DNA from: Limimaricola soesokkakensis
GTDB lineage: Bacteria; Pseudomonadota; Alphaproteobacteria; Rhodobacterales; Rhodobacteraceae
Direction: 5' to 3'
Assembly (NCBI RefSeq): GCF_900172345.1
Contig: NZ_FWFY01000004.1
Coordinates: forward strand, 310,001 to 374,000
DNA: 64,000 nucleotides
Made by a program: the position numbers and the translations under genes
Notes under the pieces: model-generated
What the model saw: the letters and a program-made list of their open reading frames with translations, nothing else
The model's database searches: none
What the model was told of the DNA's origin: nothing
Shown here: one piece after another, positions 1,756 through 43,676 of the stretch
Layout: each line of letters opens with the position of its first letter
Position numbering within the stretch: position 1 is the first letter of the stretch

Positions 1756-1759
1756 ACCC

Positions 1760-5629: not shown

Positions 5630-5635
5630 GCCGCC

Positions 5636-5666: not shown

Positions 5667-5676
5667 GCCTTGGGAC

Positions 5677-6453
5677 TTACTTGTCCTCGTCTTCGTCCTC
5701 GTCGCCGCCCTTGGGCAGGTTGAAGAAGCTGTCGGCATCCGAGACGTCGCGCTCGTCCTGCGGCTCCTCGGCCTCCTCCTCTTCGGAGGCGTTGCTCTCG
5801 GAGAGGGTGAAGCCTTCGAGACCGGTCATCGAGGAGGGCATCTTGGTCTCGGGCGACATGCCGAGGCTCTGCTCGGTCGAGACCAGCTTGCGGCGCTCGT
5901 CGTCGCTCATCGCCGATCCGTCGCGCAGACGCTTGGCATTGGCCTGCTGCACGGCGGCATCGAGCTCGGACTGGCGGCACAGCCCCAGCGCCACCGGGTC
6001 GATCGGGTCGATGTTGCCGATGTTCCAGTGGGTGCGCTCGCGGATCGCCTGGATCGTCGGCTTGGTGGTGCCGACCAGCTTGGAGATCTGCCCGTCCGAC
6101 AGCTCGGGGTGGAACTTGACCAGCCACAGGATCGAGGCGGGCCGATCCTGACGCTTGGACAGCGGCGTGTAGCGCGGGCCCCGGCGCTTCTCCTCGCCGA
6201 CGGCGGAAGCGTTGAACTTGAGCTTCAGCTTGTGCAGCGGGTTCTTCTCCGCCTTCTCGATCTCATCCTGCGTCAGCTGGTTGTTGGCGACCGGGTCGAA
6301 GCCCTTCACGCCCGCGGCCACGTCGCCGTCGGCGATGCCCTGCACCTCGAGCTCGTGCAGCCCGCAGAAATCGCCGATCTGCTTGAAGCTGATCGTCGTG
6401 TTGTCCACCAGCCAGACGGCGGTGGCCTTGGCCATGAGCGGTTTGTCAGCCAT
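5677..6453 (-). CDS. trcR: cell-cycle transcriptional regulator TrcR (DUF1013)
   Basis: 258 residues beginning MADKPLMAKATAVWLVDNTT, the typical start of DUF1013 proteins. These are conserved in Alphaproteobacteria, and the Caulobacter member TrcR is described as an RNA-polymerase-associated cell-cycle regulator. Helix-turn-helix-like segments occur near 14-35 (ISFKQIGDFCGLHELEVQGIA) and about 117-140 (SDGQISKLVGTTKPTIQAIRER). The C-terminus is very acidic, ending GGDEDEDEDK. ATG at 6453 is chosen over an upstream in-frame start (6546) because conservation begins there and AAAGGG lies upstream. Transcribed divergently from the RNase T2 gene. Confidence 0.88.
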   Translation of the reverse strand: MADKPLMAKATAVWLVDNTTISFKQIGDFCGLHELEVQGIADGDVAAGVKGFDPVANNQLTQDEIEKAEKNPLHKLKLKFNASAVGEEKRRGPRYTPLSKRQDRPASILWLVKFHPELSDGQISKLVGTTKPTIQAIRERTHWNIGNIDPIDPVALGLCRQSELDAAVQQANAKRLRDGSAMSDDERRKLVSTEQSLGMSPETKMPSSMTGLEGFTLSESNASEEEEAEEPQDERDVSDADSFFNLPKGGDEDEDEDK

Positions 6454-23807: not shown

Positions 23808-24323
23808 TCAGACCACGGTCAGCCGCGCCGGCCGAGTCCAGATCGTGACCACGTCGCGCGTCTCGTCATTCAGCATCTCGATCATCCGGCCGCGCTTGAG
23901 CCCCGGCAGCGCCGCAAAGGCGTCGAACAGCGCCTCCGCCCCATCGGCGGTGACCGGGATCGCGAGAACCTCGGTGCCGGTTTCCAACAGCCAATGCGCC
24001 GGCTTCGCGCGCCGGTCGAGCCTGAGCCGCCGGACCTCGTCAAGATCGACCATGCCGCCGGTCAGCGGCCCCATATAGGCGACCCGGCCCTCGTCGATCT
24101 TCAGGAGGCCCGGCCCCCGCCCCTCCTGCCGGAAGCGCCAGCGCTGCACGCCACCGATCACCAGTCCGGCACCCAGCGCGGCAAGCCCCCAGCCCAGCCA
24201 TTGCAGGATGCCGAAGCTCGCGAGCGCCCACCAGAGCCCGAGCCCGGCAAGGACCAGCCCGACGAGCACCTCGCGCCCACGCCACAGCGCCGCGCGCGCC
24301 TCAGGGCGCAGCAGATCAGCCAT
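23808..24323 (-). CDS. conserved membrane protein of unknown function
   Basis: 171 residues. Two adjacent membrane helices (about 20-38 VLVGLVLAGLGLWWALASFG and 41-60 WLGWGLAALGAGLVIGGVQ) are followed by a soluble domain of about 105 residues with beta character (KIDEGRVAYMGPLTGGMVDLDEVRRLRL... LETGTEVLAIPVTADGAEALFDAFAALPGLKRG). No catalytic motif is recognised. It follows rsmE on the same strand; the 69-nt gap contains one copy of the dispersed 3' element (24332-24355), just before this gene's ribosome site. Confidence 0.75.
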   Translation of the reverse strand: MADLLRPEARAALWRGREVLVGLVLAGLGLWWALASFGILQWLGWGLAALGAGLVIGGVQRWRFRQEGRGPGLLKIDEGRVAYMGPLTGGMVDLDEVRRLRLDRRAKPAHWLLETGTEVLAIPVTADGAEALFDAFAALPGLKRGRMIEMLNDETRDVVTIWTRPARLTVV

Positions 24324-24331
24324 CGCCCTGC

Positions 24332-24355
24332 CCGACTTTGTTCTTCAAATACGCA
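24332..24355 (-). repeat. dispersed 3'-end element, copy A (after rsmE)
   Basis: On the minus strand it reads TGCGTATTTGAAGAACAAAG followed by TCGG. It is identical over 24 nt to copy C (61155-61178). A perfect hairpin (CCCGGCC/GGCCGGG, 24358-24373) lies immediately upstream in the sense direction, 20 nt after the rsmE stop. Confidence 0.75.
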
Positions 24356-24392
24356 AACCCGGCCACGGCCGGGCGCCCGGGGTCCGGGCGGC

Positions 24393-25112
24393 TCACCGCC
24401 AGTCCCCGAGCGTGGTCTGCCAGAGCGTCAGGGCCGCGACCGCCGCGGTGTCGGCGCGCAGGATGCGCGGCCCGAGGCTGACGGGATGCGCACCCTCCAG
24501 CCCGCGCAGCCGCGCCCGTTCCTTGTCCGAGAACCCGCCCTCGGGTCCGATCAGCACCGCCCATGGCCCCGGGGCGTCGGGCAACCGCCCGCTTTCCCCC
24601 ACCAGCGTCTCGTCGCAGAACATCAGCCTACGCTCCCCGGGCCAGCCGTCGAGCAGACGCGCCAGCTTTACCGGCTCGGCCACCTGCGGCACGTAGGTGC
24701 CGCCGCATTGTTCGGCCGCTTCGACGGCATGGGCCTGCAACCGGTCGACCCGTACCCGCTCGGAATTGGTGAACTCGGTCAGCACCGGCAGGATTCGCGC
24801 CGCCCCCATCTCGGCCGCCTTCTCGACGATGAAGTCGGTGCGCGCCTTCTTGATCGGCGCGAAGCACAGCCAAAGATCGGGCGGTGGCATGAACGGCTTT
24901 GTCTTCGCGCCGATCTCCAGCGTGCCGCCGCGCTTGCCGGCCTGCGCGATGGTGGCGTCGAACTCGCCCGAGTGCCCGTCGAAAACGGAAATGACGCTGC
25001 CCGGGGGCAGCCGCATCACCCCGGAGAGGTAATGCGCCTGCGCCGCCTCCAGCGGAACGGTTTGCCCTTCGGCCAGAGGGTGATCTACAAACAGCCGGAC
25101 CTTGGATGCCAT
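24393..25112 (-). CDS. rsmE: 16S rRNA (uracil(1498)-N(3))-methyltransferase
   Basis: 239 residues. N-terminal PUA-like domain (VRLFVDHPLAEGQTVPL, HYLSGVMRLPPGSVISVFDG) and C-terminal SPOUT knot with FCDETL, VLIGPEGGFSDKERARL (near 190-206) and SLGPRILRADTAAVAAL (near 213-230). It methylates U1498 of 16S rRNA. The start at 25112 lies only 12 bp from the divergent ubiA start, so the promoter must be inside ubiA or very compact. An in-frame start four codons upstream (MVRP) would overlap the ubiA start. Confidence 0.95.
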   Translation of the reverse strand: MASKVRLFVDHPLAEGQTVPLEAAQAHYLSGVMRLPPGSVISVFDGHSGEFDATIAQAGKRGGTLEIGAKTKPFMPPPDLWLCFAPIKKARTDFIVEKAAEMGAARILPVLTEFTNSERVRVDRLQAHAVEAAEQCGGTYVPQVAEPVKLARLLDGWPGERRLMFCDETLVGESGRLPDAPGPWAVLIGPEGGFSDKERARLRGLEGAHPVSLGPRILRADTAAVAALTLWQTTLGDWR

Positions 25113-25124
25113 GGGGCGGACCAT

Positions 25125-26093
25125 ATGAAAGCGGCGGATCGGATGCCAGAGGCCGAAGAGGGCAGCGTCGCGGATGCGCCGCGCGGCAATTGGGTGGATC
25201 GTCTCGCGCCGCGCCGCACCCGCCCCTATCTGCGGCTGAGCCGCGCCGACCGACCGATCGGCACCTGGCTGCTGCTGCTGCCCTGCTGGTGGGGGCTGCT
25301 GCTGGCGGCGCTCGCGATGGACGGCTTCGGGCTCGAGGGCGCGTGGATCGCCATCGGCTGCGCACTGGGCGCCTTCCTGATGCGCGGCGCGGGCTGCACC
25401 TGGAACGACGTGACCGACCGACATATCGACGGCTCGGTCGCGCGCACCCGCTCTCGCCCGATCCCCTCGGGACAGGTTCGGGTGATGCAGGCGCTGATCT
25501 GGATGGCGACGCAGACGCTGGTGTCGCTGGTGATCCTGCTCACCTTCGACTGGGCCGCGATCTGGCTCGGCGTCGCCTCGCTGGTGCCGGTGGCGATCTA
25601 TCCCTTCGCCAAGCGCTTCACCTGGTGGCCACAGGTATTTCTGGGCCTCGCCTTCAACTGGGGCGCGCTGCTGGCCTGGGCGGCGCTCACCGGGTCGCTG
25701 TCATGGGCGCCGGTGGCGCTCTATCTATCGGGCATCGCCTGGACGCTGTTCTACGACACGATCTACGCGCATCAGGATGCCGAGGACGACGCGCTGATCG
25801 GCGTGAAATCGACCGCCCGCCTGTTCGGCGACCGCTCCCGGATCTGGCTGCGCGGCTTTCTGGTGGCCACGGTGCTGCTGATGGGGCTCGCGGTGCTGCT
25901 GGCCGCGCGAGACCGGTCGGTGCTGTCGCTGGTGGTGGCGCTGGGCGGGCCTTGGGCGATGGGATGGCACATGGTCTGGCAGCTGGCGCGCTTCGATCCT
26001 GCCGACAATGCCGGGCTGCTGCGGCTGTTCCGTTCGAACCGCGATGCCGGGCTCCTGCCCGTGCTGTTTTCCGCCGCCGCCTTGGCGCTGTGA
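25125..26093 (+). CDS. ubiA: 4-hydroxybenzoate octaprenyl/decaprenyl transferase
   Basis: 322 residues, about eight membrane helices. The two Asp-rich prenyl-diphosphate/Mg motifs are present: NDVTDRHID (near 93-101) and YDTIYAHQDAEDD (near 210-222), plus the RSRPIPSG turn. It attaches the polyprenyl tail to 4-hydroxybenzoate in ubiquinone synthesis; the tail would be made by the polyprenyl synthase at 53.4 kb. ATG 25125 gives MKAADRMPEAEEG; ATG 25143 is an alternative. Divergent from rsmE across a 12-bp gap. Confidence 0.94.
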   Translation: MKAADRMPEAEEGSVADAPRGNWVDRLAPRRTRPYLRLSRADRPIGTWLLLLPCWWGLLLAALAMDGFGLEGAWIAIGCALGAFLMRGAGCTWNDVTDRHIDGSVARTRSRPIPSGQVRVMQALIWMATQTLVSLVILLTFDWAAIWLGVASLVPVAIYPFAKRFTWWPQVFLGLAFNWGALLAWAALTGSLSWAPVALYLSGIAWTLFYDTIYAHQDAEDDALIGVKSTARLFGDRSRIWLRGFLVATVLLMGLAVLLAARDRSVLSLVVALGGPWAMGWHMVWQLARFDPADNAGLLRLFRSNRDAGLLPVLFSAAALAL

Positions 26094-26151
26094 TTGATCT
26101 GGCATCCCCTGCGCTCTAGAAGGCGCGGGCCGCCACAGACCCGGACCCCAG

Positions 26152-28170
26152 ATGCGCCTCCCTCCGATAGCCGCCGTCATTTCCGCCTTCGCCCTTGCCG
26201 GCGGAGTCTCGGTCATCGCCGCGCGCACCGCCGTCGCCGTGGTCGAGGATGTCTCGGCCAGCGAGGTTCGCGCCGCGCTCGCCGCGCAGGGCTACGACTG
26301 GGCCAGCGTGCAGGCCGACGGGCTGCAGGTGGTGATCGAAGGCGCCGCTCCGACCGAGGCGATCCGATTCCGGGCGATGTCGGCGGCGGGCGGCGTGGTC
26401 GATGCGAGCCGGGTGATCGACAACATGCGGGTGGTCGAGGCCGAGACGCCGCCGCCGCCCGATTTCGCCGTCGAGATCCTGCGCAACGACAGCGGCGTGT
26501 CGCTGATCGGCCTGATCCCGGCCGGTACCGACCGCGCGGCGCTGATCGCCGAGATGGAGCGCGCCGCCGACGGGCTGCCGGTGACCGACCTGCTCGACGT
26601 CGCGGACCACCCGGTGCCCGAGCACTGGGCTTCGGCGCTGCGCTATGCTGGCCGGGCGTTGCAGACGCTGCCGCATTCCAAGCTCTCGGTGCGGCCCGGC
26701 CGGGTCCGGGTCGAGGCGATCTCGGAAAGCCCCGAGGCGCAGCGCAAGCTGGAGAGCGAGCTGGCGCGGCTCAAGCCCGACACCGTGCGCCTGGCGCTGC
26801 GGATCTCGGCGCCGCGCCCGGTGATTACCCCCTTCACCGCCCGTTTCGTGATCGACGAGGACGGCGCCCGCTTCGACGCCTGCTCGGCCGACACCACCGA
26901 AGCCCAGGCTGCCATCATCGCCGCTGCCGAGGCGGCCGGCGCCTCGGGCGAGATCGACTGCATCCTCGGGCTGGGCGTGCCCTCGGATGAATGGGGCGAG
27001 GCGGTCTCGCGCGCCATCGCCGCGCTGGCCGATATAGGCGGCGGCAGCGTCACCTTCTCGGATGCCGACGTCTCGCTGGTCGCGGCGCAGGGCACCGATG
27101 CCGCCGCTTTCGACCGCGTGGCGGCGCAGCTCGAAACCGAGTTGCCCGATTTCTTCGCGCTCGAGGCGGTGCTGCCGGAGGCGCCCGAGGCGCGTCCCGA
27201 AGGCGCCCCCGAATTCAACGCCGTCCTCGCCGAGGACGGGGCGCTGCGCCTGAGCGGCCGGTTGCCCGACCAGCTGGCCAGCACCACGGTCGAGAACTTC
27301 GCCCGGGCCCGCTTCGGCGGCGACGGCCTCGCCGTGGCGACGCGGGTGACCGATGGGCTGCCGGGCGACTGGTCGGTGCGGGTGCTGACCGGTCTCGATG
27401 CGCTGTCGCTTCTCTCCGAGGGCCGCCTCGCCGTCGGTCCGGACAATGTCGCGGTCAGCGGGCTGACCGGCCGCAAGAGCGCCGCCGCCGACATCGCCGG
27501 GCTGATGGCCGAAAAGCTCGGCCAGGGCGCCAAGTTCGACATCGATGTGAGCTATCGCGAGGAGCTCGACCCGATCGCCGGCCTGCCCTCGCCCGAGGAA
27601 TGCCTGCGCCAGATCGCCTTCGTGACCGCAGATACCAAGATCACTTTCGACGCGGGATCGGCTTCGATCACCGCCGAGGCGCGCCCGGTGATCGACGACA
27701 TCGCCGAGATCGTGCGCCGCTGCCCGGAGCTCGAGATCGAGGTGGCGGGCTATACCGACAGCCAGGGCCGCGATGAGATGAACCTCGAGTTGAGCCAGGA
27801 GCGCGCCGACGCGGTGGTCGAGGCGCTGCGCCGGGCCCGCGTACCGGTGGCGGGTTTCACCGCGGTGGGCTATGGCGAAGCAGATCCGATCGCCGACAAC
27901 GGCACCTCGGCGGGCCGCGAGGCCAACCGCCGTATCGAGTTCCGCCTTTCGGGCGCGCAGGCCGCGACCGAAGACGGGACTGAAGACGAGGCCGCGACCG
28001 AAGACGGGACTGAAGACGAGGCCGAGACCGAAGCCGGGGCGGAGGCGGATGGCGAGGCCGATACGGAAGCCGAGACCGGGACGGACGACGATACGGCCGC
28101 CGGGCCGCAGCCGATGGAAAAGCCCGGAACCGGGCCGAGGGCACGACCCTCAGACGAGGAAGACGAGTAG
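26152..28170 (+). CDS. OmpA-family outer-membrane/peptidoglycan-binding protein with acidic tail
   Basis: 672 residues. Signal peptide or anchor (MRLPPIAAVISAFALAGGVSV), then a long periplasmic region with BON-like repeats (ASEVRAALAAQGYDWASVQADGLQVVIEGAAP and later copies), and an OmpA C-terminal domain about 485-610: ITFDAGSASITAEARPVIDDIAEI, GYTDSQGRDEMNLELSQERADAV, GYGEADPIADNGTSAGREANRRIEF, with the Asp and Arg that bind diaminopimelate. The last 60 residues are extremely acidic and contain a perfect 30-bp tandem duplication. It probably links envelope layers. Followed closely by a small coiled-coil gene. Confidence 0.85.
   Translation: MRLPPIAAVISAFALAGGVSVIAARTAVAVVEDVSASEVRAALAAQGYDWASVQADGLQVVIEGAAPTEAIRFRAMSAAGGVVDASRVIDNMRVVEAETPPPPDFAVEILRNDSGVSLIGLIPAGTDRAALIAEMERAADGLPVTDLLDVADHPVPEHWASALRYAGRALQTLPHSKLSVRPGRVRVEAISESPEAQRKLESELARLKPDTVRLALRISAPRPVITPFTARFVIDEDGARFDACSADTTEAQAAIIAAAEAAGASGEIDCILGLGVPSDEWGEAVSRAIAALADIGGGSVTFSDADVSLVAAQGTDAAAFDRVAAQLETELPDFFALEAVLPEAPEARPEGAPEFNAVLAEDGALRLSGRLPDQLASTTVENFARARFGGDGLAVATRVTDGLPGDWSVRVLTGLDALSLLSEGRLAVGPDNVAVSGLTGRKSAAADIAGLMAEKLGQGAKFDIDVSYREELDPIAGLPSPEECLRQIAFVTADTKITFDAGSASITAEARPVIDDIAEIVRRCPELEIEVAGYTDSQGRDEMNLELSQERADAVVEALRRARVPVAGFTAVGYGEADPIADNGTSAGREANRRIEFRLSGAQAATEDGTEDEAATEDGTEDEAETEAGAEADGEADTEAETGTDDDTAAGPQPMEKPGTGPRARPSDEEDE
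27961..28020 (+). repeat. perfect 30-bp tandem duplication in the OmpA-like gene
   Basis: 27961-27990 and 27991-28020 are identical 30-mers encoding AATEDGTEDE twice; a degraded third unit follows. The in-frame unit lengthens an acidic tail without changing the frame and could vary by slippage. Confidence 0.9.
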
Positions 28171-28180
28171 GGACAGGGAC

Positions 28181-28507
28181 GTGAACAGAACCGAGTTCAT
28201 CATCGCCACGGCGGTCATCCTCTTCGCCGCCTTCGCGCTAGGCTGGTTCGCCAGCTGGCTGGTGAACCGCTTCACCCGCGTCACCCGCGCCGATATCGGT
28301 GAGCTGGACCGAATGGCGCAGGCGCTGCACGAAGCCGAGGAGACGCGCGATCAGGCGATCTCCTATGTGGAGGAGCGCGAGGCCGAGCTGACCGGCCAGC
28401 TCAAGCAGTCCGAGGCCGAGCTGCGCGCCGCCATGGAAGCGCTGCGCGAGGCGCGCCACGAGGCCGAGGATCTGCGCGGCTGGATCGAACGTCACAACGT
28501 CGGCTGA
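28181..28507 (+). CDS. small membrane-anchored coiled-coil protein, unknown function
   Basis: 108 residues. One N-terminal membrane helix (FIIATAVILFAAFALGWFASWLV, about 6-28), a basic stop (NRFTRVTR), then a long charged heptad-type helix (ELDRMAQALHEAEETRDQAISYVEEREAELTGQLKQSEAEL...) to residue about 100. GTG start 28181 is preceded by GGGACAGGG. It lies 10 nt after the OmpA-like gene and is probably co-transcribed, so an envelope scaffold role is plausible but unproven. Confidence 0.75.
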   Translation: MNRTEFIIATAVILFAAFALGWFASWLVNRFTRVTRADIGELDRMAQALHEAEETRDQAISYVEEREAELTGQLKQSEAELRAAMEALREARHEAEDLRGWIERHNVG

Positions 28508-28553
28508 GGCACCCGGAAGGCCGAGCCGGCGCGCCGGCGTCGGGGCGGTCGCC

Positions 28554-28576
28554 ATGCGTATTTGGAGAAAGATGAA
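28554..28576 (+). repeat. dispersed 3'-end element, diverged copy D
   Basis: ATGCGTATTTGGAGAAAGAT then GAA, 47 nt after the stop of the coiled-coil gene and in its sense direction. The palindrome GCCGGCGCGCCGGC (28525-28538) precedes it. It shares GCGTATTT and the AGAA(A)AG purine core with copies A-C. Confidence 0.55.
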
Positions 28577-28650
28577 CAGGGGCGGCGCACCGTTCATCGG
28601 GCCCATTCGCCCCCTGCCATCCCGGCGCGATCCGGCATAGCCTGCGCCCC

Positions 28651-29442
28651 ATGGAATCGGCACTGGATTACTGGAGCGCGCGGGCGCTGCTCGACTGGCA
28701 GATCGAGATGGGGGCGGACGAGGCGATGCTCGACGCGCCGCTCGACCGCTATACGCTCACCGATACCCGCCCTGCCATGACCCCTGCACCCGGCGCGGCT
28801 GCCGCCCCCGGGCCGGTCCGCATCGAGGAGCCGGATCCGGTGGCGCTGGCCCATGCCACCGCCGAGGCCGCGCCCGATCTCGAAGCGCTCGCCGCCGCGA
28901 TGGAGGGATTCGAACCCTGCGACCTGCGGCGCGGCGCGCGCAGCTTCGTCTTCGCGGCCGGCCGGGCCGGTGCCCGCGTGATGTTGCTGCTCGATCCGCC
29001 GCATCGCGAGGAGGACCGCGCCGGCACGCCGGTGGCCGGCCCCGCCGCCGTGCTGCTGGAGCGGATGCTCGCCGCCATCGGCCTCTCCGCCGAGGCGCCC
29101 GACGCGGAGCGCGCGGTCTACATGGCGCCGGTGCTGCCTTGGCGGATCCCGGGCGACCGCGCCCCCGACCCCAAGGATCTCGCGATGATGCGGCCCTTCC
29201 TCGACCGGCATGTCGCGCTGGCCGATCCGGATGTCGTCGTGATCATGGGCTCGGTCGCCTGCGCCGCGCTGATCAAGGGCGGCGGGCTGCACCGTCTGCG
29301 CGGTCGCTGGACCGAGCTTTCGGGCCGACCGGCCCTGCCGATCTTCTCGCCCGCGCATCTGATCGCAAACCCGGTGGCCAAGCGCGAAGCTTGGGCCGAC
29401 CTTCTGGCCCTGAAAACACGGCTCGACGGGGGCATGGCATGA
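28651..29442 (+). CDS. uracil-DNA glycosylase family-4-like protein with degenerate motifs
   Basis: 263 residues. The C-terminal two-thirds follows family-4 UDG (VYMAPVLPWRIPGDRAPDPKDLAMMRPFLDRHV; VIMGSVACAALIKG; LRGRWTEL; NPVAKREAWADLLALKTRL). Key positions differ. Motif A, normally GEAPGxxED, is LLLDPPHREED. GRPFVGxxGxLL is GTPVAGPAAVLL. Motif B HPAYLL is SPAHLI. Of the four Fe-S Cys only one (EPCDLRRG) remains. Some cysteine loss seems common in this bacterial group, but loss of motifs A and B suggests reduced or different activity. ATGA overlap with the LysE-type gene downstream. Confidence 0.75.
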   Translation: MESALDYWSARALLDWQIEMGADEAMLDAPLDRYTLTDTRPAMTPAPGAAAAPGPVRIEEPDPVALAHATAEAAPDLEALAAAMEGFEPCDLRRGARSFVFAAGRAGARVMLLLDPPHREEDRAGTPVAGPAAVLLERMLAAIGLSAEAPDAERAVYMAPVLPWRIPGDRAPDPKDLAMMRPFLDRHVALADPDVVVIMGSVACAALIKGGGLHRLRGRWTELSGRPALPIFSPAHLIANPVAKREAWADLLALKTRLDGGMA

Positions 29443-30056
29443 TCGATCCCCTCGTGCTGCTGGCATTTCTTCCGGCGGCGCTCGCGCTCAACCTGACGCC
29501 GGGCGCCGACATGATGTTCTGTCTGGGCCAGGGCCTGCGCGGCGGGCCGCGCGCGGCGCTGGCCGCCGATGCCGGCATCGGGCTGGCGGTGATGGGTCAC
29601 GTGACGCTGGCGGGGCTCGGGCTCGGCGCCGCCGTGGCGGCGATGCCATGGCTTTTCGACGCGATCCGCTGGATCGGTGTCGGCTATCTTCTCTGGCTCG
29701 CCGCGACGGCCCTGCGGGGCGATGGCGCGGCGACGGAGATCCCGGCCGTGCGCCCGGCGCGCGCCTTTCGACAGGGTCTCGCGGTCAATCTCACCAACCC
29801 CAAGGTGATCCTCTTCGTGCTGGCCTTCCTGCCGCAATTCACCGACCCCGCCCGCCCGGTGCTGCCGCAATTCCTCGCGCTCGGCGCGGTGCTGTCGCTG
29901 GGCGGGCTGGTGGTCAACGGCGCGGTCGGCGTCCTCGCCGGCGGCATCGGCCGCCGCCTCGCCGGGTCGGCGGGGTTCAATCGCTGGCTGGGCCGCGTCT
30001 CGGCCTCGATCTTCGCGGCCCTCGCGCTGCGCCTCGCCCTCCTGCCAAAGGCCTAA
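29439..30056 (+). CDS. LysE/RhtB-family amino-acid exporter
   Basis: 205 residues with about six membrane helices. The family start LLAFLPAALALNLTPGADMMFCLGQGLRGGPRAALAADAGIGLAV (PGP-like NLTPGAD motif near 17-23) and the mid-protein FRQGLAVNLTNPKVILFVLAFLPQF segment are diagnostic. Members export amino acids or homoserine lactones; the substrate is not predictable. ATG overlaps the UDG-like stop (ATGA), and moaB begins 3 nt after its stop, so the three genes likely share a transcript. Confidence 0.92.
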   Translation: MIDPLVLLAFLPAALALNLTPGADMMFCLGQGLRGGPRAALAADAGIGLAVMGHVTLAGLGLGAAVAAMPWLFDAIRWIGVGYLLWLAATALRGDGAATEIPAVRPARAFRQGLAVNLTNPKVILFVLAFLPQFTDPARPVLPQFLALGAVLSLGGLVVNGAVGVLAGGIGRRLAGSAGFNRWLGRVSASIFAALALRLALLPKA

Positions 30057-30058
30057 TC

Positions 30059-30586
30059 ATGGATCGAGATTTCCTGCCCGTCCGCATCGCCATCCTGACG
30101 GTGAGCGACACGCGAGATGCCTCCGACGACCGCTCCGGTGACACGCTGGTCGAACGCCTCGGCGCGGCAGGACACGTGCTGGCGGCGCGCGAGATGCTGC
30201 GCGACGACCGCGCCGCCATCGCCGAGACACTGCGAAAATGGTGCGCCGATCCGCAGATCGACGTGGTGATCTCCACCGGCGGCACCGGGCTGACCGGGCG
30301 CGACGTGACGGTCGAGGCGCATCGCGACGTCTACGAAAAGGAGATCGACGCCTTCGGCACGGTCTTCACCATCGTCTCGATGAACAAGATCGGCACCTCG
30401 GCCGTCCAGAGCCGGGCCACCGGCGGCGTCGCCATGGGCACCTACCTGTTCGCCCTGCCCGGTTCGCCCTCGGCCTGCCGGGACGCTTGGGACGAGATCC
30501 TCGAGCGTCAGCTCGACTACCGCCACCGCCCCTGCAATTTCGTGGAGATTTTGCCGCGGCTCGACGAACATCTGCGGCGCAAGTGA
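30059..30586 (+). CDS. moaB: molybdenum cofactor biosynthesis protein B
   Basis: 175 residues of the MogA/MoaB fold. Segments AILTVSDTRDASDDRSGDTLVERL (near 11-34), VVISTGGTGLTGRDVTVEA (molybdopterin-binding GGTG near 79) and ALPGSPSACRDAWDEIL (PGxP near 138) are intact, which fits adenylyl-transfer to molybdopterin. Other Moco genes of the window are at 46.2 kb (mobA) and 59.7-60.4 kb (moaE, moaD). Confidence 0.93.
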   Translation: MDRDFLPVRIAILTVSDTRDASDDRSGDTLVERLGAAGHVLAAREMLRDDRAAIAETLRKWCADPQIDVVISTGGTGLTGRDVTVEAHRDVYEKEIDAFGTVFTIVSMNKIGTSAVQSRATGGVAMGTYLFALPGSPSACRDAWDEILERQLDYRHRPCNFVEILPRLDEHLRRK

Positions 30587-30593
30587 TCCGGAC

Positions 30594-31400
30594 CTAGGCC
30601 GGGGCGCAGCCCCTGAACTCCACCGCCTCGCCCTCGCCGATCATCGTCAGCACCAGCGCCGAGCGATCGAGCGCCACCGGGGCGCCTGAGACATGGGAAA
30701 TTCGAGTGCTGGCGACGACGGCACCGCCGTCGCGGCGCATCTCGACCGGCGCCACCCAGAGCGCGTCGTCGCCGGTCTCCACCACCACGGCCCGGGCTCC
30801 GGTCATCGCCGGAAGCGTCGCGGTGAGCGACAGCCCCTCGTCGGTCGGCGCGACGCTGCAGCGCGCCGGTCCGATCCCGGCCTCGGCCGGCGTGTGCGCC
30901 CGGTCGGCCAAGGCCAGCGCGAGGGTCGGGTCGCGCTGTTCCGTCCGCGGCAAATCGGCCGCGAAATCGAGCGAGACCGGCACGCAGACCTCCTGGCAGA
31001 CCCCGATCTCCAGACGTCCCTCGATGCGCATCGGCGCGTCCGCCCGCGCGGGCGCGATCTCCACCGGCAGGACCACCTGGTCGGAATAGCCGTAGGTCTC
31101 GTAGCCGCCGATCTCGAACACCTCCGGCACCGGCCATCGGAACGCGGCGCCGGCGACGTTCTCCGAGCCGTTCCAGTCGATCCGGGGCGGGATGCCTGCC
31201 TCGCCCGGGGCGCGCCAATAGGTCTTCCATCCCGGCGCAAGGCTGATCCGAAAGCCGGCCATCTGCGTGCCCTCGGCCGTCCGCCAGCCCGGCAGAAGAT
31301 CCAGCCGGACGATGTCGTCGACCGGCCCGGCGGAGGCCGCCACGGGAATGGACAGGGCAATCAGGACGGCAAGCGGGGAAAGGGGCATTCGGCTGTTCAT
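30594..31400 (-). CDS. periplasmic DsbD N-terminal-domain (DsbC-type interchange) protein
   Basis: 268 residues. Signal peptide [21 protein letters not shown] (after a four-residue extension MNSR from ATG 31400; ATG 31388 is an alternative start). The mature part follows the DsbD alpha-domain: [42 protein letters not shown] and a redox pair in [15 protein letters not shown] (CxxxC near residue 145). In DsbD this domain passes electrons from the membrane domain to periplasmic thiol proteins; here it is a stand-alone protein. Convergent with moaB. Confidence 0.82.
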
Positions 31401-31505
31401 GACAGCAGTGATGCCGTGGCCGCGGGTCGAAGGAAAGTCACGTCGACGCGAGAGCGACGTGTGCCCCCTCTTGATCGCGTGGCCCATGCACCACATTCTG
31501 AAAGC

Positions 31506-32075
31506 ATGAAAGCCCTGAACCCCGATCTGAGCGGCAAGCTCCTCATCGCGATGCCCGGCATGGGCGACCCGCGCTTCGATCACGCGGTGATCTTCATCTG
31601 CGCCCATTCCGATGAAGGGGCGATGGGCCTGATCGTCAACAAGCCCGCCACCGAGGTGCGGTTCAGCGATCTGCTCGAACAGCTGGAGATCACGCCCGAT
31701 CCCGGCCTGCGCGACATCCGCGTGCATCTGGGCGGCCCGGTCGAGGAAAGCCGCGGCTTCGTGCTGCACACGACGGATTACACCTCCGACCAGGGCACGC
31801 TACAGGTCGACGAAGGCACGGCGATGACCGCGACGCTCGACGTGCTCGAGGAGATCGCCCATGGGCGCGGCCCGAAATCATCGCTTTTGGCGCTGGGCTA
31901 TGCCGGCTGGGGCCCCGGCCAGCTCGAGAGCGAGTTGGCGCAGAATGGCTGGCTGATCGGCGAAGCGCAGCACGCCGTGGTGTTCGGTCGCGCCAACGAG
32001 CATAAATGGGCCGCCGCGCTCAAGGGGCTCGGTATCGATCCGCTGAGCCTGTCACCGACCTCCGGCACCGCCTGA
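31506..32075 (+). CDS. YqgE/AlgH family protein (DUF179)
   Basis: 189 residues. Family landmarks: [40 protein letters not shown] (residues about 8-47), [19 protein letters not shown] (near 77-95) and [23 protein letters not shown] (near 128-150). Biochemical function is unknown. Its end carries hairpin CCGGGC/GCCCGG (32091-32105) and a copy of the dispersed 3' element, facing a second copy from the convergent thioredoxin gene. Confidence 0.93.
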
Positions 32076-32110
32076 CCCGAGAACGGCACGCCGGGCCCTG
32101 CCCGGTCGCC

Positions 32111-32131
32111 ATGCGTATTCTCAGAGCAAAG
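32111..32131 (+). repeat. dispersed 3'-end element, copy B1 (after yqgE)
   Basis: ATGCGTATTCTCAGAGCAAA plus G, 35 nt after the yqgE stop and preceded by hairpin CCGGGC-CCT-GCCCGG (32091-32105). It matches copy B2 inverted at 19 of 24 positions when flanks are included. Confidence 0.6.
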
Positions 32132-32156
32132 TGGCCATGTGACGCAGTCCTTGGCT

Positions 32157-32177
32157 ACTTTGTTCTTCAAATACGCA
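32157..32177 (-). repeat. dispersed 3'-end element, copy B2 (after the TlpA-like gene)
   Basis: Minus strand TGCGTATTTGAAGAACAAAG plus T, 12 nt after the stop of the thioredoxin-like gene. It forms an imperfect inverted repeat with B1, spanning 32112-32176. Confidence 0.7.
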
Positions 32178-32189
32178 AATCCCGACGGT

Positions 32190-32747
32190 TCAGCCCTCCT
32201 GCCCTTCGGCAATCAGCGCCTCGACGATGGCGCGCGCGCTGTCCGAGGACCAGTCCGCCTCGCCCTGAAGGCGCCCGATCTCGCGGCCCTCGGCATCGAG
32301 GATCAGCGTCACGGGCAGGCCGAGCACGCCGAAATCGCGCGCCAGAGCCTGTCTCGGATCCTTGTGGCGCGGCAGGGTCTCGGCACCGATCTCGGTGAGA
32401 AACCGCTCCATGCTGGCCGGATCGTTCCGGCCCGTGGCGATGGTGATGACCTCGAAGTCCTCGCCGCCATACTCGTCCTGCAGCGCCGCGAGTTGTGGCA
32501 TCTCGACCCGGCAGGGCGCGCACCACGTGGCCCAGAAGTTCACCAGCACCGGCCTGCCCTCGTATGCGGCCAAGGTGATCTCGCCGCCCTCCTCGCTTTC
32601 GAAGGCGACGTCGGAGCCGCGCTGCGGTTCGGCATGCACCGCGAGCTTGCGCATGTCGCCTTCGCGCAGTGCCTCGATGTCGGCGGGGCCGGCGTTTGCA
32701 AGGCTCGTTGCCGCCATGTAAAGACCGATGAGAACGATGCTGCGCAT
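32190..32747 (-). CDS. TlpA-type periplasmic thioredoxin/disulfide reductase
   Basis: 185 residues. Signal peptide [19 protein letters not shown], then a thioredoxin fold: [36 protein letters not shown] with redox WCAPC near residues 74-78, and cis-Pro in [28 protein letters not shown] (near 145). TlpA/ResA-like proteins keep cytochrome c or other periplasmic thiols reduced. It is divergent from argH (24-bp gap). The DsbD-N-like protein 1 kb away is a possible partner, by proximity only. Confidence 0.92.
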
Positions 32748-32771
32748 GTGACTTCCTTCGAGGACCCAAAG

Positions 32772-34160
32772 ATGACCGAGAGCTCCAACGCGATGTGGGG
32801 CGGCCGTTTCGCCGCCGGGCCGGACGCGATCATGGAGGCGATCAACGCCTCGATCGGCTACGACCGGCGTCTTGCGCCGCAGGACATCGAAGGCTCCCGG
32901 GCCCATGCCGCGATGTTGGCGGCGCAGGGCATCATCGAGCCTAAGGATGCGGAAGAGATCAGGAAAGGCCTTCTCACGGTCTTGTCAGAGATCGAAGGCG
33001 GCAGCTTCGAATTCTCGACCGCGCTCGAGGACATCCACATGAACGTCGAGGCGCGGCTCAAGCAGCTGATCGGCGAGCCTGCCGGCCGGCTGCACACCGC
33101 CCGCTCGCGCAATGACCAAGTCGCGACCGACCTGCGTCTCTGGGTCCGCGACCAGTGCGACGCCGCGCAGGACGCGCTCACCGCGTTGATCGAGGCGCTG
33201 CTCGGGCAAGCCGAGGTCGGAGCCGACTGGGTGATGCCGGGCTTCACCCACCTTCAGACCGCGCAGCCCGTCACCTGGGGTCATCACATGATGGCCTATG
33301 TCGAGATGTTCGGCCGCGACCGCACCCGTTTCGCCAATGCCCGCGCGCTGATGAACGAAAGCCCGCTCGGGGCCGCGGCGCTGGCCGGCACCTCCTTTCC
33401 GATCGACCGCGAGGCGACGGCGCAGGCGCTTGGCTTCGACCGCCCCATGGCCAACAGCCTCGACGCGGTGTCGGACCGCGATTTCGCGCTGGAGTTCCTC
33501 TCGGCCGCGACGATCTGCGCGATGCATCTGTCGCGGCTCTCTGAGGAGCTGGTGATCTGGTCCTCGGCGCAGTTCCGCTTCGTCGCCATGTCCGACCGCT
33601 GGTCGACTGGCTCCTCGATCATGCCGCAAAAGCGCAACCCCGATGCCGCCGAGCTGATCCGCGCCAAGATCGGCCGGATCATGGGCGCAAACGTCGCGCT
33701 GATGACGGTGATGAAGGGGCTACCGCTGGCCTATGGCAAGGACATGCAGGAAGACAAGGAGCAGGTCTTCGACGCTGCCGACAACCTGATGCTGTCGCTC
33801 GCGGCGATGAGCGGCATGGTCGCCGACATGACCGCCCAGCCCGACAATCTGCGTGCCGCCGCGGCCTCGGGCTTTTCCACCGCGACCGATCTGGCCGACT
33901 GGCTGGTGCGCGAGCTCGGCCTGCCCTTCCGCGACGCGCATCACGTCACCGGGTCGCTGGTCGCGCGGGCCGAGGAAAGGGGCTGCGACCTGCCGGAGCT
34001 GACGATCGAGGACATGAAGGCTGTGCACGAGGGCATCACCGAAGACGTGTTCGGCGTGCTGACGGTCGAAAACTCGGTCGCCTCGCGCACCGCCTATGGC
34101 GGCACCGCGCCCGACAACGTGCGCGCGCAGATCGCGCGCTGGCGGGACGCGCTCAAGTGA
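32772..34160 (+). CDS. argH: argininosuccinate lyase
   Basis: 462 residues. Cleaves argininosuccinate to arginine and fumarate. Superfamily signature [20 protein letters not shown] (near 283-302), with [16 protein letters not shown] (near 112-127), [16 protein letters not shown] (near 158-173) and [18 protein letters not shown]-like segments. The stop overlaps the GTG of a 42-residue lipoprotein (GTGA), starting a coupled chain argH-lipoprotein-DUF2834. Confidence 0.97.
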
Positions 34161-34285
34161 AGCTCACGCTGCTGGCGCTGATGTTGCTGGCCGGTTGCGG
34201 TGCGGGCGGCGTGCCCGAGGCGCCCGGCGCGGTGCTGGGCTATGGCGAGACCGGGATCGACCGCCGCCTCGGGGGTGCGCCGTGA
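34157..34285 (+). CDS. 42-residue lipoprotein, LptM (YifL)-like, between argH and lysA
   Basis: GTG 34157 overlaps the argH stop (GTGA); the frame ends at 34285, overlapping the next GTG. Sequence: signal segment [15 protein letters not shown] with lipobox LAGC (Cys 14), then a short mature tail [13 protein letters not shown]. This matches the layout of the LptM/YifL family (short lipoprotein, Gly-rich and Pro just after Cys) and the usual location upstream of lysA in Proteobacteria. LptM assists oxidative maturation of the LPS translocon LptD in E. coli. The Lys/Pro-Leu of CGxKGPL are not kept, so identity is probable, not certain. Confidence 0.7.
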
Positions 34286-34590
34286 GATGGGTCTGGCTGG
34301 CGCTCGCGGTCTGGGGCGCGCTGCATCCGACGCGCTGGTTCATCGCCTGGTTCGCGCAGAACGGCTATTCCTGGTCCGGGCTGTTCGCGGCCTGGCGCGC
34401 CAACCCGGCGACGACCGGGTTGATGTGGGACGCCACCATCGCCGCCGTGGCGCTGACGCTCTGGATCCTCTCCGAGGTACGGGTGCGCCGCAACTGGGAG
34501 GCACTGGCGGCGATCCCCGCCACCTTCCTGATCGGCATCGGCTGCGGATTGCCGCTGTTCTTGTTCCTGCGGACCCGGCCGCTCGGCTGA
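34282..34590 (+). CDS. DUF2834 small membrane protein
   Basis: 102 residues with three hydrophobic helices (about 3-17 plus the following turn, 45-65, 77-97). The start [24 protein letters not shown] and GLMWDATIAAVALTLWILSEVRVRRNW are typical of DUF2834. Function unknown. GTG 34282 overlaps the lipoprotein stop (GTGA). Conserved association with argH/lysA in this group is likely, but there is no functional evidence. Confidence 0.85.
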   Translation: MRWVWLALAVWGALHPTRWFIAWFAQNGYSWSGLFAAWRANPATTGLMWDATIAAVALTLWILSEVRVRRNWEALAAIPATFLIGIGCGLPLFLFLRTRPLG

Positions 34591-34667
34591 GGATGCGGCA
34601 TCGCGGGGCTTGGGATCGCGCCGCGATCTGCTAAGAGGCGGCGCGGAGCAGCAAGCGGAGCGAGACC

Positions 34668-35933
34668 TTGGACCATTTCCTCTATCGTGACGGCCGGCTG
34701 ATGGCCGAGGACGTCGCCGTCTCGGAGATCGTGGCCGAGATCGGAACCCCGGTCTACGTCTACTCCTCCGCCACGCTGCTGCGGCATCTGAAGCTGTTCG
34801 AGGAGGCGCTGGACGGGCTGCCGCATCTGGTCTGCTTCGCGGTCAAGTCGCTGGGCAACGTCGCGGTGCTCAAACTTCTGGGCGAGGCCGGGGCCGGCAT
34901 GGATATTGTCTCCGGCGGCGAATACGCCCGTGCCCGCGCTGCCGGCGTGCCGGGCGAGCGCATCGTCTTCTCCGGTGTCGGCAAGACCCGTGACGAGATG
35001 CGCATGGCGCTCGAGGGCGGCATCCGCCAATTCAACGTCGAGAGCGAGCCCGAGCTTCAGGCGCTCTCCGAGGTGGTGTCGTCGCTGGGCAAGACCGCGC
35101 CCATCACTATCCGCGTCAATCCCGACGTCGACGCCAAGACCCACGCCAAGATCGCCACCGGCAAGTCCGAGAACAAGTTCGGCATCCCGATCGCCCGTGC
35201 CCGCGAGGTCTATGCCATGGCCGCCCGGCTGCCGGGCATCGAAGTGATCGGCATCGACGTGCATATCGGCTCCCAGCTCACCGAACTGGCCCCCTTCGAG
35301 GCGGCCTTCACCAAGGTGGCCGAGCTGACCGAGACGCTGCGCGCCGACGGGCACGACATCCGCCGCCTCGATCTCGGCGGCGGCTTGGGCATTCCCTATG
35401 AGCGGATCAACGAGGCGCCGCCCCTGCCCTTCGACTACGGCGCGCTGATCCGGCGCACGGTCGGCCATCTGGGCTGCGAGATCGAGATCGAGCCGGGGCG
35501 GCTGGTCGCCGGCAATGCCGGGTTGCTGATCAGCCGGGTGATCTACGCCAAGTCCGGGGAGGGCCGCGATTTCCTGATCCTCGACGCGGCGATGAACGAT
35601 CTGGTTCGCCCCTCGATGTATGACGCGCATCACGACATCGTCCCGGTGATCGAGCCCGAGGCCGGGGCCGAGACCAGGCCGTGGGACGTGGTCGGCCCCG
35701 TCTGCGAGACCGGCGACACCTTCGCGCGGGGCCGCGAACTGCCCCCCGTAGGCGAGGGCGACCTCGTCGCGTTCCGTTCCGCCGGGGCTTACGGCGCGGC
35801 GATGGCGAGCGAGTACAACGCCCGGCCGCTGGTGCCGGAGGTGTTGGTCAGGGGCGATCAATTCGCGGTTATCCGCCGTCGGCCTAGCTATGAGGAAATG
35901 ATCGCGCGCGATAGCATCCCCGAATGGCTATGA
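34668..35933 (+). CDS. lysA: diaminopimelate decarboxylase
   Basis: 421 residues. PLP enzyme making lysine from meso-DAP. PLP-binding Lys in LVCFAVKSLGNVAVLKLL (near residue 58), substrate loops HIGSQLTELAPFEAAF (near 201), GGGLGIPY (near 238), EPGRLVAGNAGLL (near 276) and CETGDTFARGRELP (near 347). TTG 34668 (MDHFLYRDG) is the start, with GGAG seven bases upstream; no ATG/GTG fits the conserved N-terminus. The stop overlaps an ATG (TGATG) of a 17-codon ORF that leads to the TIGR02302 gene. Confidence 0.96.
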   Translation: MDHFLYRDGRLMAEDVAVSEIVAEIGTPVYVYSSATLLRHLKLFEEALDGLPHLVCFAVKSLGNVAVLKLLGEAGAGMDIVSGGEYARARAAGVPGERIVFSGVGKTRDEMRMALEGGIRQFNVESEPELQALSEVVSSLGKTAPITIRVNPDVDAKTHAKIATGKSENKFGIPIARAREVYAMAARLPGIEVIGIDVHIGSQLTELAPFEAAFTKVAELTETLRADGHDIRRLDLGGGLGIPYERINEAPPLPFDYGALIRRTVGHLGCEIEIEPGRLVAGNAGLLISRVIYAKSGEGRDFLILDAAMNDLVRPSMYDAHHDIVPVIEPEAGAETRPWDVVGPVCETGDTFARGRELPPVGEGDLVAFRSAGAYGAAMASEYNARPLVPEVLVRGDQFAVIRRRPSYEEMIARDSIPEWL

Positions 35934-35986
35934 TGGAGACGACCCGACCGCGCCACAGACCGCTGCACGGAGCACCGGCACCCTGA
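35933..35986 (+). CDS. possible 17-residue coupling ORF between lysA and the TIGR02302 gene
   Basis: ATG 35933 shares its A with the lysA stop, and the frame (METTRPRHRPLHGAPAP) stops at TGA 35984-35986. That stop overlaps CTG 35983, the proposed start of the next gene. The peptide itself looks random and basic; its role would be to carry terminating ribosomes to the CTG. It could equally be a chance ORF. Confidence 0.25.
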   Translation: METTRPRHRPLHGAPAP

Positions 35987-38547
35987 CCGAGACACGCGAT
36001 CCCCTGTCGCATCTGAAACGCCCCGTCGCGCTGACCCGCGCCGGGATGGTCGCCGAACGCCTGTTACGCGCCTTCTGGCCGCTCTGGACGGTGCTGGCGC
36101 TGGCGCTGGCGCCGCTGATCGCCGGCTGGCAGGATCGGCTGCCGGTCGAGGCATTCTGGGGCTGGGGCGTACTGGCGATCCTCGGCGCGATCGCCGGGCT
36201 GGGTTGGGGGCTGTGGCGGTTTCGCTGGCCCTCCCGCGAGGCGGCGCTCGACCGGCTCGACCGCAGCCTGCCGGGCCGCCCGGTTTCGGCGCTCAGGGAC
36301 GCGCAGGCGACCGGGCGCGGCGATGCGGGCTCCGAGGCGCTCTGGACCGCGCATCTGGCGCGGATGCGGGCGCGCAGCGAAAACGCGCCCCCTGCCCGGC
36401 CGAACCTCAATCTCGCGGCGCGCGATCCCTTCGGCCTGCGCTACATCGCGCTGCTGTTCCTGCTGACGGCGCTGATGTTCGGCTCAGTCTGGCGGCTTGG
36501 CAGCGTTGCCGGCCTGACCCCGGGCGGTGGCGAGGCGCTGGCGCAGGGCCCGGTCTGGGAAGGCTGGGTCGAACCGCCGGCCCATACCGGCCAGCCGGTA
36601 CTCTATCTGCCCGACCAGCCGCCCGGGCCGCTGACCGTCCCGACCGGCAGCACCGTCACCTTGCGGCTATACGGCAAGATCGGCGCGCTGACTCTCTCCG
36701 AGACCGTATCCGGCCGCACCGGCGAGCTGCCCGCCGCCTCCGAGCCGAGCCAGTCCTTCGAAGTCACCCGCGACGGGACGATCGAGATCGACGGGCCGGG
36801 CGGCGCGGCCTGGCAGGTCGAGGCGATCCCCGACGCGCGGCCGCAGGTCTCGGTCGCAGGACCGGTCGAGACCGCTGGGCTGGGGCAGATGACCCTGCCC
36901 TTCCGGGCCAGCGACGACCACGGCGTGGTCTCGGGAAGCGCCACCATCGCGCTTGATGCCGAGGCGGTCGAGCGGCGCCACGGTCTGGATATCGAACCCG
37001 ATCCGCGACCGGCGCTGACCGTCGATCTGCCAATGCCCTTCACCGGTGACCGGGCCGAGATCGAGGAGATCCTCGCGGGTGACTTCTCCGAGCATCCCTT
37101 CGCCAACATGCCAGTGCGGATCACGCTGCAGGTGACCGACGCCGCCGGGCAGACCGGCGCCTCCGAACCCTACCCCACCACCCTGCCGGGCCGCCGCTTC
37201 TTCCAGCCGGTGGCGCGCGCCGTGGCCGAGCAGCGGCGCGACCTGCTGTGGTCGCGCGACAATGCCGGCCGCGTGGTCGATCTGCTGCGCGCCGTGTCGC
37301 ACCGCCCCGGCGAGGTGTTTCCGAACCAAACCACATATCTGCGGCTGCGCGTGGCGCTGCGTCGGCTCGACACGCTGCGCCGCGCGCCGGACGGGCTGTC
37401 CGAGGACGCGCAGGCCGAGATCGCGCAGGCGCTCTGGGAGCTCGCCGTGCAGCTCGAGGACGGCACTCTGGCCGATGCCCGCGAACGGTTGCGCCGGGCG
37501 CAGGAGCGGCTGGCACAGGCGATGCGCGACGGCGCCAGCCCCGACGAGATCGCCGAGCTGATGGACGAGCTGCGGGCCGCCACCGACGAGTATCTGCGCA
37601 TGCTCGCCGAGAACGCCCAGCCGGCCGAGGACGGCATCGACGAGCCGCAGACCGGACAGGGCGAGAGCATGCAGGTCACCCAGGACGAGCTGCAGGCGCT
37701 GATGGACCGGATTCAGGAGTTGATGGAAGAGGGCCGGATGGCCGAGGCCGCCGAGCTGATGGAGCAGCTCAACCGGATGATGGAAAACCTGCAGGTGGCG
37801 CAGGGCGAAGGTGGCAACGGCCCGCGCACCCCGGGTCAGCAATCGATGCAGGATCTGCAGGAGTCTCTGCGCGACCAGCAGGATCTGTCGGACGAGGCGT
37901 TCCGCGACCTGCAGGACCGCTTCAACGGTCGCGAGCCGGGACAGGGTCAGCCCGGTCAGGGCCAACCGGGTCAACCGGGCCAGGGCCAGCCGGGTCAGCC
38001 GGGCCAACCCGGCGACGGCCAGCAGCCGGGAGCCGGACAGCAGCCGGGCGAAGGCAGCCTTGCTGATCGGCAGCGCGCCCTGCGCGACGAGCTGGCGAGG
38101 CAGCGCGGCGCCCTGCCGCGGCTGGAAGGCGAGGCGGCCCGGCGAGCAGGCGAGGCGCTTGACCGCGCCGGTCGCGCCATGGACGAGGCCGAGGATGCGC
38201 TACGCCGCGACGATCTGGCGGGTGCCATCGACAGGCAGGCCGAAGCGACCGAGGCGCTGCGCGGCGCCGCGCGCGATCTCGGCGAGGCGCTCGCGCGTGG
38301 CGAGGAAGGCGAGCCCGGCACGCCCGGCGCCGGCGAAACCCGCGGCGCCGGGGCTGGCCAGCGCGATCCGCTGGGCCGCGACACCGCCGAGCGGGGTGGT
38401 GCGGGCAGCGACGATTCGATGCTCGACGGCACCGATCCGGCGCGCCGGGCCGAGGAGCTCCTTGGCGAGATCCGCCGCCGCGCCGCCGAACGCGAACGCC
38501 CGCAGGCCGAGCGCGACTATCTCGAGCGGCTGCTCGACCTGTTCTGA
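35983..38547 (+). CDS. TIGR02302 (DUF4175) family membrane protein
   Basis: About 854 residues if started at CTG 35983; ATG 36046 gives 833. The segment before the ATG, LTETRDPLSHLKRPVALTRAG, looks like the family's true N-terminus. GGAG lies 10 nt before the CTG, while ATG 36046 has no SD. N-terminal membrane helices are at about 33-50, 54-75 and 150-165. A large periplasmic beta-rich region is followed by a helical, Glu/Ala/Gln-rich domain with many QxLMDxIQELMEEGRMAEAAELMEQL-type units, a Gly-Gln-Pro repeat (about 645-685) and a charged C-terminus. Function unknown; restricted to Alphaproteobacteria as far as I know. Confidence 0.8.
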   Translation: MTETRDPLSHLKRPVALTRAGMVAERLLRAFWPLWTVLALALAPLIAGWQDRLPVEAFWGWGVLAILGAIAGLGWGLWRFRWPSREAALDRLDRSLPGRPVSALRDAQATGRGDAGSEALWTAHLARMRARSENAPPARPNLNLAARDPFGLRYIALLFLLTALMFGSVWRLGSVAGLTPGGGEALAQGPVWEGWVEPPAHTGQPVLYLPDQPPGPLTVPTGSTVTLRLYGKIGALTLSETVSGRTGELPAASEPSQSFEVTRDGTIEIDGPGGAAWQVEAIPDARPQVSVAGPVETAGLGQMTLPFRASDDHGVVSGSATIALDAEAVERRHGLDIEPDPRPALTVDLPMPFTGDRAEIEEILAGDFSEHPFANMPVRITLQVTDAAGQTGASEPYPTTLPGRRFFQPVARAVAEQRRDLLWSRDNAGRVVDLLRAVSHRPGEVFPNQTTYLRLRVALRRLDTLRRAPDGLSEDAQAEIAQALWELAVQLEDGTLADARERLRRAQERLAQAMRDGASPDEIAELMDELRAATDEYLRMLAENAQPAEDGIDEPQTGQGESMQVTQDELQALMDRIQELMEEGRMAEAAELMEQLNRMMENLQVAQGEGGNGPRTPGQQSMQDLQESLRDQQDLSDEAFRDLQDRFNGREPGQGQPGQGQPGQPGQGQPGQPGQPGDGQQPGAGQQPGEGSLADRQRALRDELARQRGALPRLEGEAARRAGEALDRAGRAMDEAEDALRRDDLAGAIDRQAEATEALRGAARDLGEALARGEEGEPGTPGAGETRGAGAGQRDPLGRDTAERGGAGSDDSMLDGTDPARRAEELLGEIRRRAAERERPQAERDYLERLLDLF
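37933..38052 (+). repeat. Gly-Gln-Pro coding repeat in the TIGR02302 gene
   Basis: Tandem GGNCAGCCGGGNCA-type units encode alternating GQPGQ/PGQ blocks (GQGQPGQGQPGQPGQGQ and on). It is low-complexity and probably a flexible linker. Copy number may vary between strains. Confidence 0.75.
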
Positions 38548-43615: not shown

Positions 43616-43616
43616 C

Positions 43617-43636: not shown

Positions 43637-43676
43637 CTCCCCTAAATTCAGGCAAGTTTGGTCAGGGGCGGCGCGC

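Follow-up and report, generated by a model that had tools for sequence, protein, structure and literature searches.

The 64-kb stretch of DNA analysed here, to which we refer as the window, carries the same 24 nt at 24332-24355 and at 61155-61178, both on the minus strand, and the genes adjoining these copies are rsmE, uvrC and pgsA, the first two as named in a preliminary description of the sequence. Three further copies listed in that description were also re-found, one as an exact 20-mer at 32158-32177 (minus strand) and two as copies with four mismatches that begin at 28555 and 32112 (plus strand), and each of the five lies 3' of a stop codon in the sense direction. The claim that the orientation is always sense fails within the window itself, where a sixth copy at 61235-61254 on the plus strand is antisense to uvrC. 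A chance origin, already doubted in the preliminary description, is countered by two controls: the window contains three matches with at most three mismatches, versus none in 100 shuffled windows, and the reversed pattern has no match in the whole genome.

The element is composed of a head, TGCGTATTT, three loose bases that are variable and purine-leaning, the triplet GAA, and a segment of about 5-7 bases that we call the word. Three words are central to what follows, A (CAAAG), B (AGATG) and C (TGGTG); after word A the sequence usually continues with TNGCC, and after word B with AAC or AAG. The copies in the window are:

24332-24355, minus strand: word-A copy behind rsmE, 12 nt 5' of the next predicted start codon
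28555-28580, plus strand: word-B copy (TGCGTATTTGGAGAAAGATGAACAGG), 47 nt past the stop at 28507
32112-32131, plus strand: between convergent genes; word-A arm of an inverted pair, degenerate, 29.3 bits
32158-32177, minus strand: exact word-A arm, partner of 32112-32131; the pair, 32112-32177, spans 66 nt
43643-43664, plus strand: within the convergent spacer 43615-43677, probably a decayed remnant
61155-61178, minus strand: word-A copy in the uvrC-pgsA spacer, exact 24-mer
61235-61254, plus strand: decayed partner copy (GGCGCATTTTCGGAACGAAG), 6 mismatches, 20.6 bits; outward-facing pair with 61155-61178

A search of the window and 13 loci against Rfam gave no match at an element at the gathering threshold. 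Elsewhere in the window, a bacterial small SRP RNA gene was recognised at 457-553 (65 bits) and a guanidine-II (mini-ykkC) riboswitch at 5123-5175 on the plus strand (38 bits), just 5' of a predicted ORF at 5201-5629, and serC leader RNAs (RF00517) occur at loci of two sister species (G006 L091:6273-6324 and G003 L119:13750-13801). A sigma-70-type promoter was rejected, as window positions 24000-36000 contain no promoter-like site, and so was a phage origin, the 48 and the 2 stretches in viral contigs having given one match each, which we took as background. The preliminary description knew of no published name for the element, and searches of open-licence PubMed Central for the motif, or for the repeats of this family, likewise gave nothing relevant; a word search of a paper on REP families (PMC3733652) for six names from this bacterial group had no match.

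Copy number and spread across the family

The genome that contains the window (G000, 3.94 Mb) has 67 exact matches to TGCGTATTTNNNGAA, 33 forward and 34 reverse, and 41 places that match the element with at most three mismatches. One of the 67 (L056) is coding sequence that resembles the element but has no word, and L024 and L025, which are identical in sequence and lie at two contig ends, are probably one site counted double. Of the 70 places in the fetched loci that match a slightly loosened head, with no filter on the word, 38 carry B, 28 carry A, three carry one-base variants and one, L056, carries neither. The 11 copy-bearing contigs amount to 2,938,077 bases, and the remaining 998,614 of 3,936,691 bases hold none of the 67; ten 20-kb stretches chosen away from listed copies also held none, which by their choice gives no estimate of density. 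When contig C20, on which the window lies, was scanned whole (424 kb), 12 matches scored at least 18 bits and just 2 fell at 5-10 bits, so that copies are either close to the consensus or missing. The weakest three of these 12 copies, at 18-29 bits, each belong to a pair, and the singles on C20 are undecayed.

The element extends beyond this genome and this genus. At the uvrC spacer, displayed for 19 genomes of the family, ten have a recognisable element, one (G002) has a degenerate one and eight have none, and several words are represented. Patterns for genome-wide searches of sister species and other genera were taken from the uvrC and rsmE spacers and were looser than the words seen there; with these, the sister species G005 and G002 have 55 and 19 copies, and the genomes G012 and G013, from other genera, have 134 and 93, with control matches of 0 or 1. 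Spacer-derived predictions were also high-copy in G008 (57) and G009 (46). The same kind of search found no copies in G010 and G014 and, in two attempts, none in G004, which has 11 matches to the head and no recognised word; G017 has eight copies that were not predicted. Words are mixed in G002, and in G005 only 4 of the 55 copies read GAGAGAAG, as in its own spacer, and 25 read GAGTGAAG. Word A is present in many copies in Limimaricola hongkongensis DSM 17492 and in Limimaricola sp. G21655-S1. Across the family, GTATTTNNNGAAMRAWG has at least 7 copies in 14 of 149 genomes and TATTTNNNCCAAGAAG at least 10 copies in 18 of 295, with one genome (G027) carrying both; resting on these two patterns, the shares are lower bounds for the element. 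The part common to all words and genera seen is TATTT. We therefore dropped the reading of a genus-restricted repeat, since other species have the element with other words.

At a number of loci in several genera and with any word (L008, L028, L036, L284, L296, L136 and L230), a GC module with CTCCCCCGG or a similar sequence at its end stands in front of the head. The element may thus be a mosaic, with this module as an independent second part.

Placement, orientation and pairing of the copies

We placed 202 copies relative to predicted genes, 69 from G000, 82 from G006 and 51, about half of its copies, from G003. The gene model was trained on 264 kb of G000, reproduces the reading frames of uvrC and rsmE, and was applied to all three genomes; models trained on G006 and G003 themselves put many copies inside genes, were judged to be locked on the wrong frame and were dropped, a swap that affects the placement counts of these two genomes. 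Codirectional spacers hold 72 copies in sense and 38 in antisense, and divergent spacers hold 18, with 5 copies overlapping genes and 2 at edges. Convergent spacers hold 67 of the 202, versus 72 of 400 background spacers with a minimum length of 40 nt (232 are codirectional and 96 divergent), those of G006 and G003 having been taken from loci selected for carrying copies. The enrichment behind stop codons that the preliminary description anticipated is thus borne out. Its observation that none of the five window copies lies inside a gene has its counterpart in the larger set, where only 5 of 202 overlap predicted genes. Full word-B copies lie antisense within long predicted genes at L053:1531 (G000) and L102:14570 (G006).

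Because pairs count both ways, orientation was tested on single copies only. In codirectional spacers, 52 singles are sense and 18 antisense (p=6e-5, the singles being taken as independent although sister species have sites in common); the ratios in the individual genomes are 24:6, 17:6 and 11:6, the last of which is not significant alone. Most of the sense singles (49/52) lie 7-55 nt from the stop, and this location, together with the sense preference, favours a role in transcript ends. The strand bias proposed in the preliminary description therefore stands as a preference of the singles and not as an absolute, since 38 of the 202 copies are antisense and 18 divergent. Roughly a quarter of the codirectional singles are antisense and 10 singles lie in divergent spacers, which argues against a strictly polar end signal. 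In addition, the next predicted start follows at a distance of just 12-18 nt for 11 of the 52 sense singles and is overlapped by another 5, so that not all of them can be full terminators. At four loci (L035 ~1594-1620 and L048 ~1542-1570, and L103 and L110 of G006) the element and the predicted start of the following gene share 3 nt, and there word B (AAAGATGAA) contains an ATG with which that gene may begin.

Placement behind genes raises the question of an intrinsic terminator. A terminator composed of an upstream hairpin and the element was rejected, as the 34 nt before the element fold no better than base composition predicts: the mean z is -0.42 for 83 sense singles vs -0.12 for 90 controls (p=0.33), and the difference in energy (-13.2 vs -9.6 in controls, p=1.5e-6) is one of base composition. 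The GC palindrome that had been noted beside copies is accordingly no general, sequence-specific feature. The element is like intrinsic terminators in its location behind genes and in the pairs between convergent genes, and unlike them in lacking a hairpin beyond composition and in a conserved sequence that runs well past TATTT.

A further possibility is that the element is an RNA processing or stability site alone, in which the AU-rich head UGCGUAUUU would be an RNase E cut site (or Hfq-type site) in 3' UTRs and the word would be incidental. This reading would account for the sense bias of singles and for TATTT being shared by the words and genera seen, and it agrees with the A/U-enriched cuts of RNase E in the GC-rich genome of R. 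sphaeroides, as described in the available part of PMC6238624. However, RNase E specificity leaves the concerted, genome-specific word unexplained, as well as the 18 antisense singles and the 18 divergent copies, and we regard this explanation as quite improbable.

Neighbouring copies form pairs, 42 of them in G000, G006 and G003, of which 31 face inward, 11 outward and none are in tandem. The span is tightly constrained, with 25 of the 31 inward pairs at 63-67 nt. Pairs that mix A, B and C do not occur in these three genomes, and one pair in G000 combines AGATG with AGGTG. The genome G012, from another genus, uses two words, including different words within pairs. In G005, four alternating copies stand in series at C12:112319-112542, in the manner of a BIME array.

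Such pairs invite comparison with REPINs, which, in the available part of Bertels and Rainey 2011 (PMC3116915), are doublets of fixed spacing, 71 bp in one group, that fall into several sequence groups per genome. A REPIN- or REP-like miniature mobile repeat would consist of inverted doublets spread by a transposase, with the singles as remnants. The narrow span of the inward pairs, the lack of tandem and of mixed-word pairs, the four-copy series in G005 and the finding that the weakest copies on C20 are pair arms all fit this explanation. The REP transposase domain PF01797, on the other hand, is missing from 7 of the 8 genomes of the genus, including G000, G001, G003 and G006, and this led us to reject a RAYT-driven REP. 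The domain is present in G007 only, and 5 of 14 control genomes were positive. At the Y1 locus of G007, the sole GTATTT match lacks one base of the motif and falls within apparent coding sequence. Single halves, moreover, keep an exact core, and orthologous places again have them as singles, which speaks against their being remnants of mobile doublets.

Words at shared sites in sister species

Each genome uses one or two words, and sister species use others at identical sites. Where word-B sites could be paired with an ortholog in G003, the partner carries word C in 17 of 17 cases for G000 and 24 of 24 for G006, two comparisons that have G003 sites in common; none of these partners has B, and none has either of the permitted intermediates, AGGTG and TAGTG. 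The intermediate TAGTG is present in one G003 copy, behind rsmE. Pairing of G000 with G006 gives 31 B-B pairs and six in which the G000 site has A and the G006 site B. In G003, the word-A sites of G000 appear as three C, six A and one CGAAG. The strict pairing let in only copies that have the head and GAA together with one of six words, and identity in these parts is therefore by construction; outside the element, positions agree mostly in 0.2-0.75 of pairs, and the examples aligned are gap-free.

When the 73 G000 copies were matched by their flanks, 45 had a G006 copy within 1 kb of the matched flank and 32 had a counterpart in the part of G003 that was fetched, but since the matched loci had been fetched for carrying copies, these counts express coincidence of position and not retention. 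The G000-G006 distances are mostly within about 60-90 nt, of which 60 is the trimming margin. In the cobM spacer, the single copy has A in G000, B in G006 and C in G003, and the half-site itself is therefore kept.

To place the window copies in this context, about 75 kb of C20 around the window, picked by synteny, was compared with G007, G006 and G003. The stretch has five sites, of which G000 and G007 have four, G003 five and G006 three, each genome with its own word. The order in G000 and G007 is A, B, an A pair, the probable decayed remnant and an A pair, with one arm of each of the two A pairs decayed in G000. In G003 the order is C (one base off), C, an A pair, C and a C pair, which faces inward where the pairs of the other genomes face outward; in G006 it is deleted, B, deleted, B and a B pair. 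Taken site by site, the copy behind rsmE has the identical word in G007 and a different word in G003 and G002, and an orthologous copy is absent from the rsmE spacer of G001, G004, G005 and G006. The copy at 28555-28580 has B in G007 and G006 and C in G003. The arm at 32112-32131 is intact at that place in G007 and G003, its spacer being deleted in G006, and the copy at 61235-61254 is intact in the near relative G007. The spacer equivalent to 43615-43677 has an intact B copy in G006 and an intact C copy in G003, and the stretch at 43643-43664 is probably what remains of an element.

Between G000 and G007, 84 kb aligned at 95.7% identity contain no new site. In the overlap of about 108 kb between G000 and G006, three G006 sites are without an intact G000 copy, and two of the four G000 sites are missing in G006; two of the three lie outside the five sites of the stretch above, one where G000 retains just a head-like stretch, near window position 4430, and one at a break in synteny with nothing in G000. 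Most sites are thus old, with losses through deletion or mutation, and some gain is possible. For a mobile repeat, the G006 sites missing from G000 are favourable evidence, whereas the lack of new sites relative to G007 and the change of word at unchanged places are not, and on balance we find this explanation unlikely.

For words to differ in concert at sites that species share, either a reader must select at every one of them or some drive, for instance preferential exchange of DNA, must be at work. A drive of that kind would make the element a tag comparable to the DNA uptake sequences (DUS) of the Neisseriaceae, with a surface or recombination protein that prefers the word of its own species and so drives one dialect. 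In the available part of Frye et al. 2013 (PMC3630211), the dialects of DUS differ between species while a core stays invariant, one genome can have two of them, inverted pairs occur between genes, positions lie in the conserved genome, copies number about 940 to 5900 per genome, and DUS that diverge by one base outnumber exact ones. Dialects, two words per genome, inverted pairs and positions in the conserved genome match the present element. The contigs of G000 that are free of the 67 copies, 998,614 bases in all, also favour this reading. At G007 C111:119350, a lone word-C copy stands among A and B, and the bases that follow it nearly match those of a G003 copy (L116:10923); judged from this similarity it is possibly an import by recombination, and it resembles the 'peregrine' DUS of that study. 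Against an exchange tag stand the 19 to 134 copies per genome, far from the DUS numbers (PMC3630211), the rarity of near-misses on C20, and the 52:18 sense bias of singles, since by our own expectation orientation should be irrelevant to uptake. We consider it improbable that such exchange underlies the words.

A putative reader at gene ends and its nearest known relatives

We suggest that the element is a site recognised by a putative reader of some kind, a reading that we hold to be probable. In the mechanism that we propose, each genome would keep a short, bipartite and asymmetric site at dozens of its gene ends, where a trans-acting, sequence-specific factor would read it. The specificity of this factor would drift, with the sites following by selection and being rewritten in place. 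Such a reader might act on transcription, as a polar protein road-block or partial terminator, or the element might alternatively be a site for trimming or protection of RNA 3' ends, and inverted pairs between convergent genes would serve both strands. We have committed ourselves to a reader-bound gene-end site because it explains the orientation, the pairs and the concerted words together; its action on transcript ends is the least certain step, and one that we put forward only tentatively, as somewhat short of an even prospect. Its extension to a family-wide system of readers and words, in which every genome would have dozens of gene ends marked by a putative trans factor, strikes us as doubtful.

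Several observations weigh against the reader, among them the antisense copies and those beside a start codon described above. The words are unclean in G012, G002 and G005, and there is a sizeable turnover of sites between G000 and G006. Furthermore, only two of seven positions are the same in words A and B, and for the six sites that have A in G000 and B in G006, stepwise selection through intermediates that would go unread is hard to picture.

If the reader is real, the different words at shared sites amount to a natural experiment in cultivable environmental species, in which the word is the main difference within each of dozens of pairs of orthologous sites, and the joint change of a DNA- or RNA-binding specificity and all of its targets becomes testable. 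The element would then represent a bacterial gene-end code, serving transcript ends or the recognition of own DNA, with dialects that separate sister species, and it may show by what means these bacteria end their transcripts, or uncover a barrier to the exchange of DNA between species.

Of the known systems, DUS dialects come nearest in evolution and REPINs in architecture, and the element fits neither in full. The RNase E sites mapped by TIER-seq in R. sphaeroides (PMC6238624, available part) share with the element an AU-rich target in a GC-rich genome and differ in that they do not predict a genome-specific word. REPINs are alike in their extragenic inverted doublets of fixed span and in their several sequence groups, and unlike in that the element lacks a RAYT in 7 of 8 genus genomes and has a half-site that is not palindromic. 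Relative to DUS, the element is longer and bipartite, with a loose 3-base gap and a sense preference behind genes; what the two have in common is species dialects with an invariant core, which in G002, G005 and G012 are less uniform.
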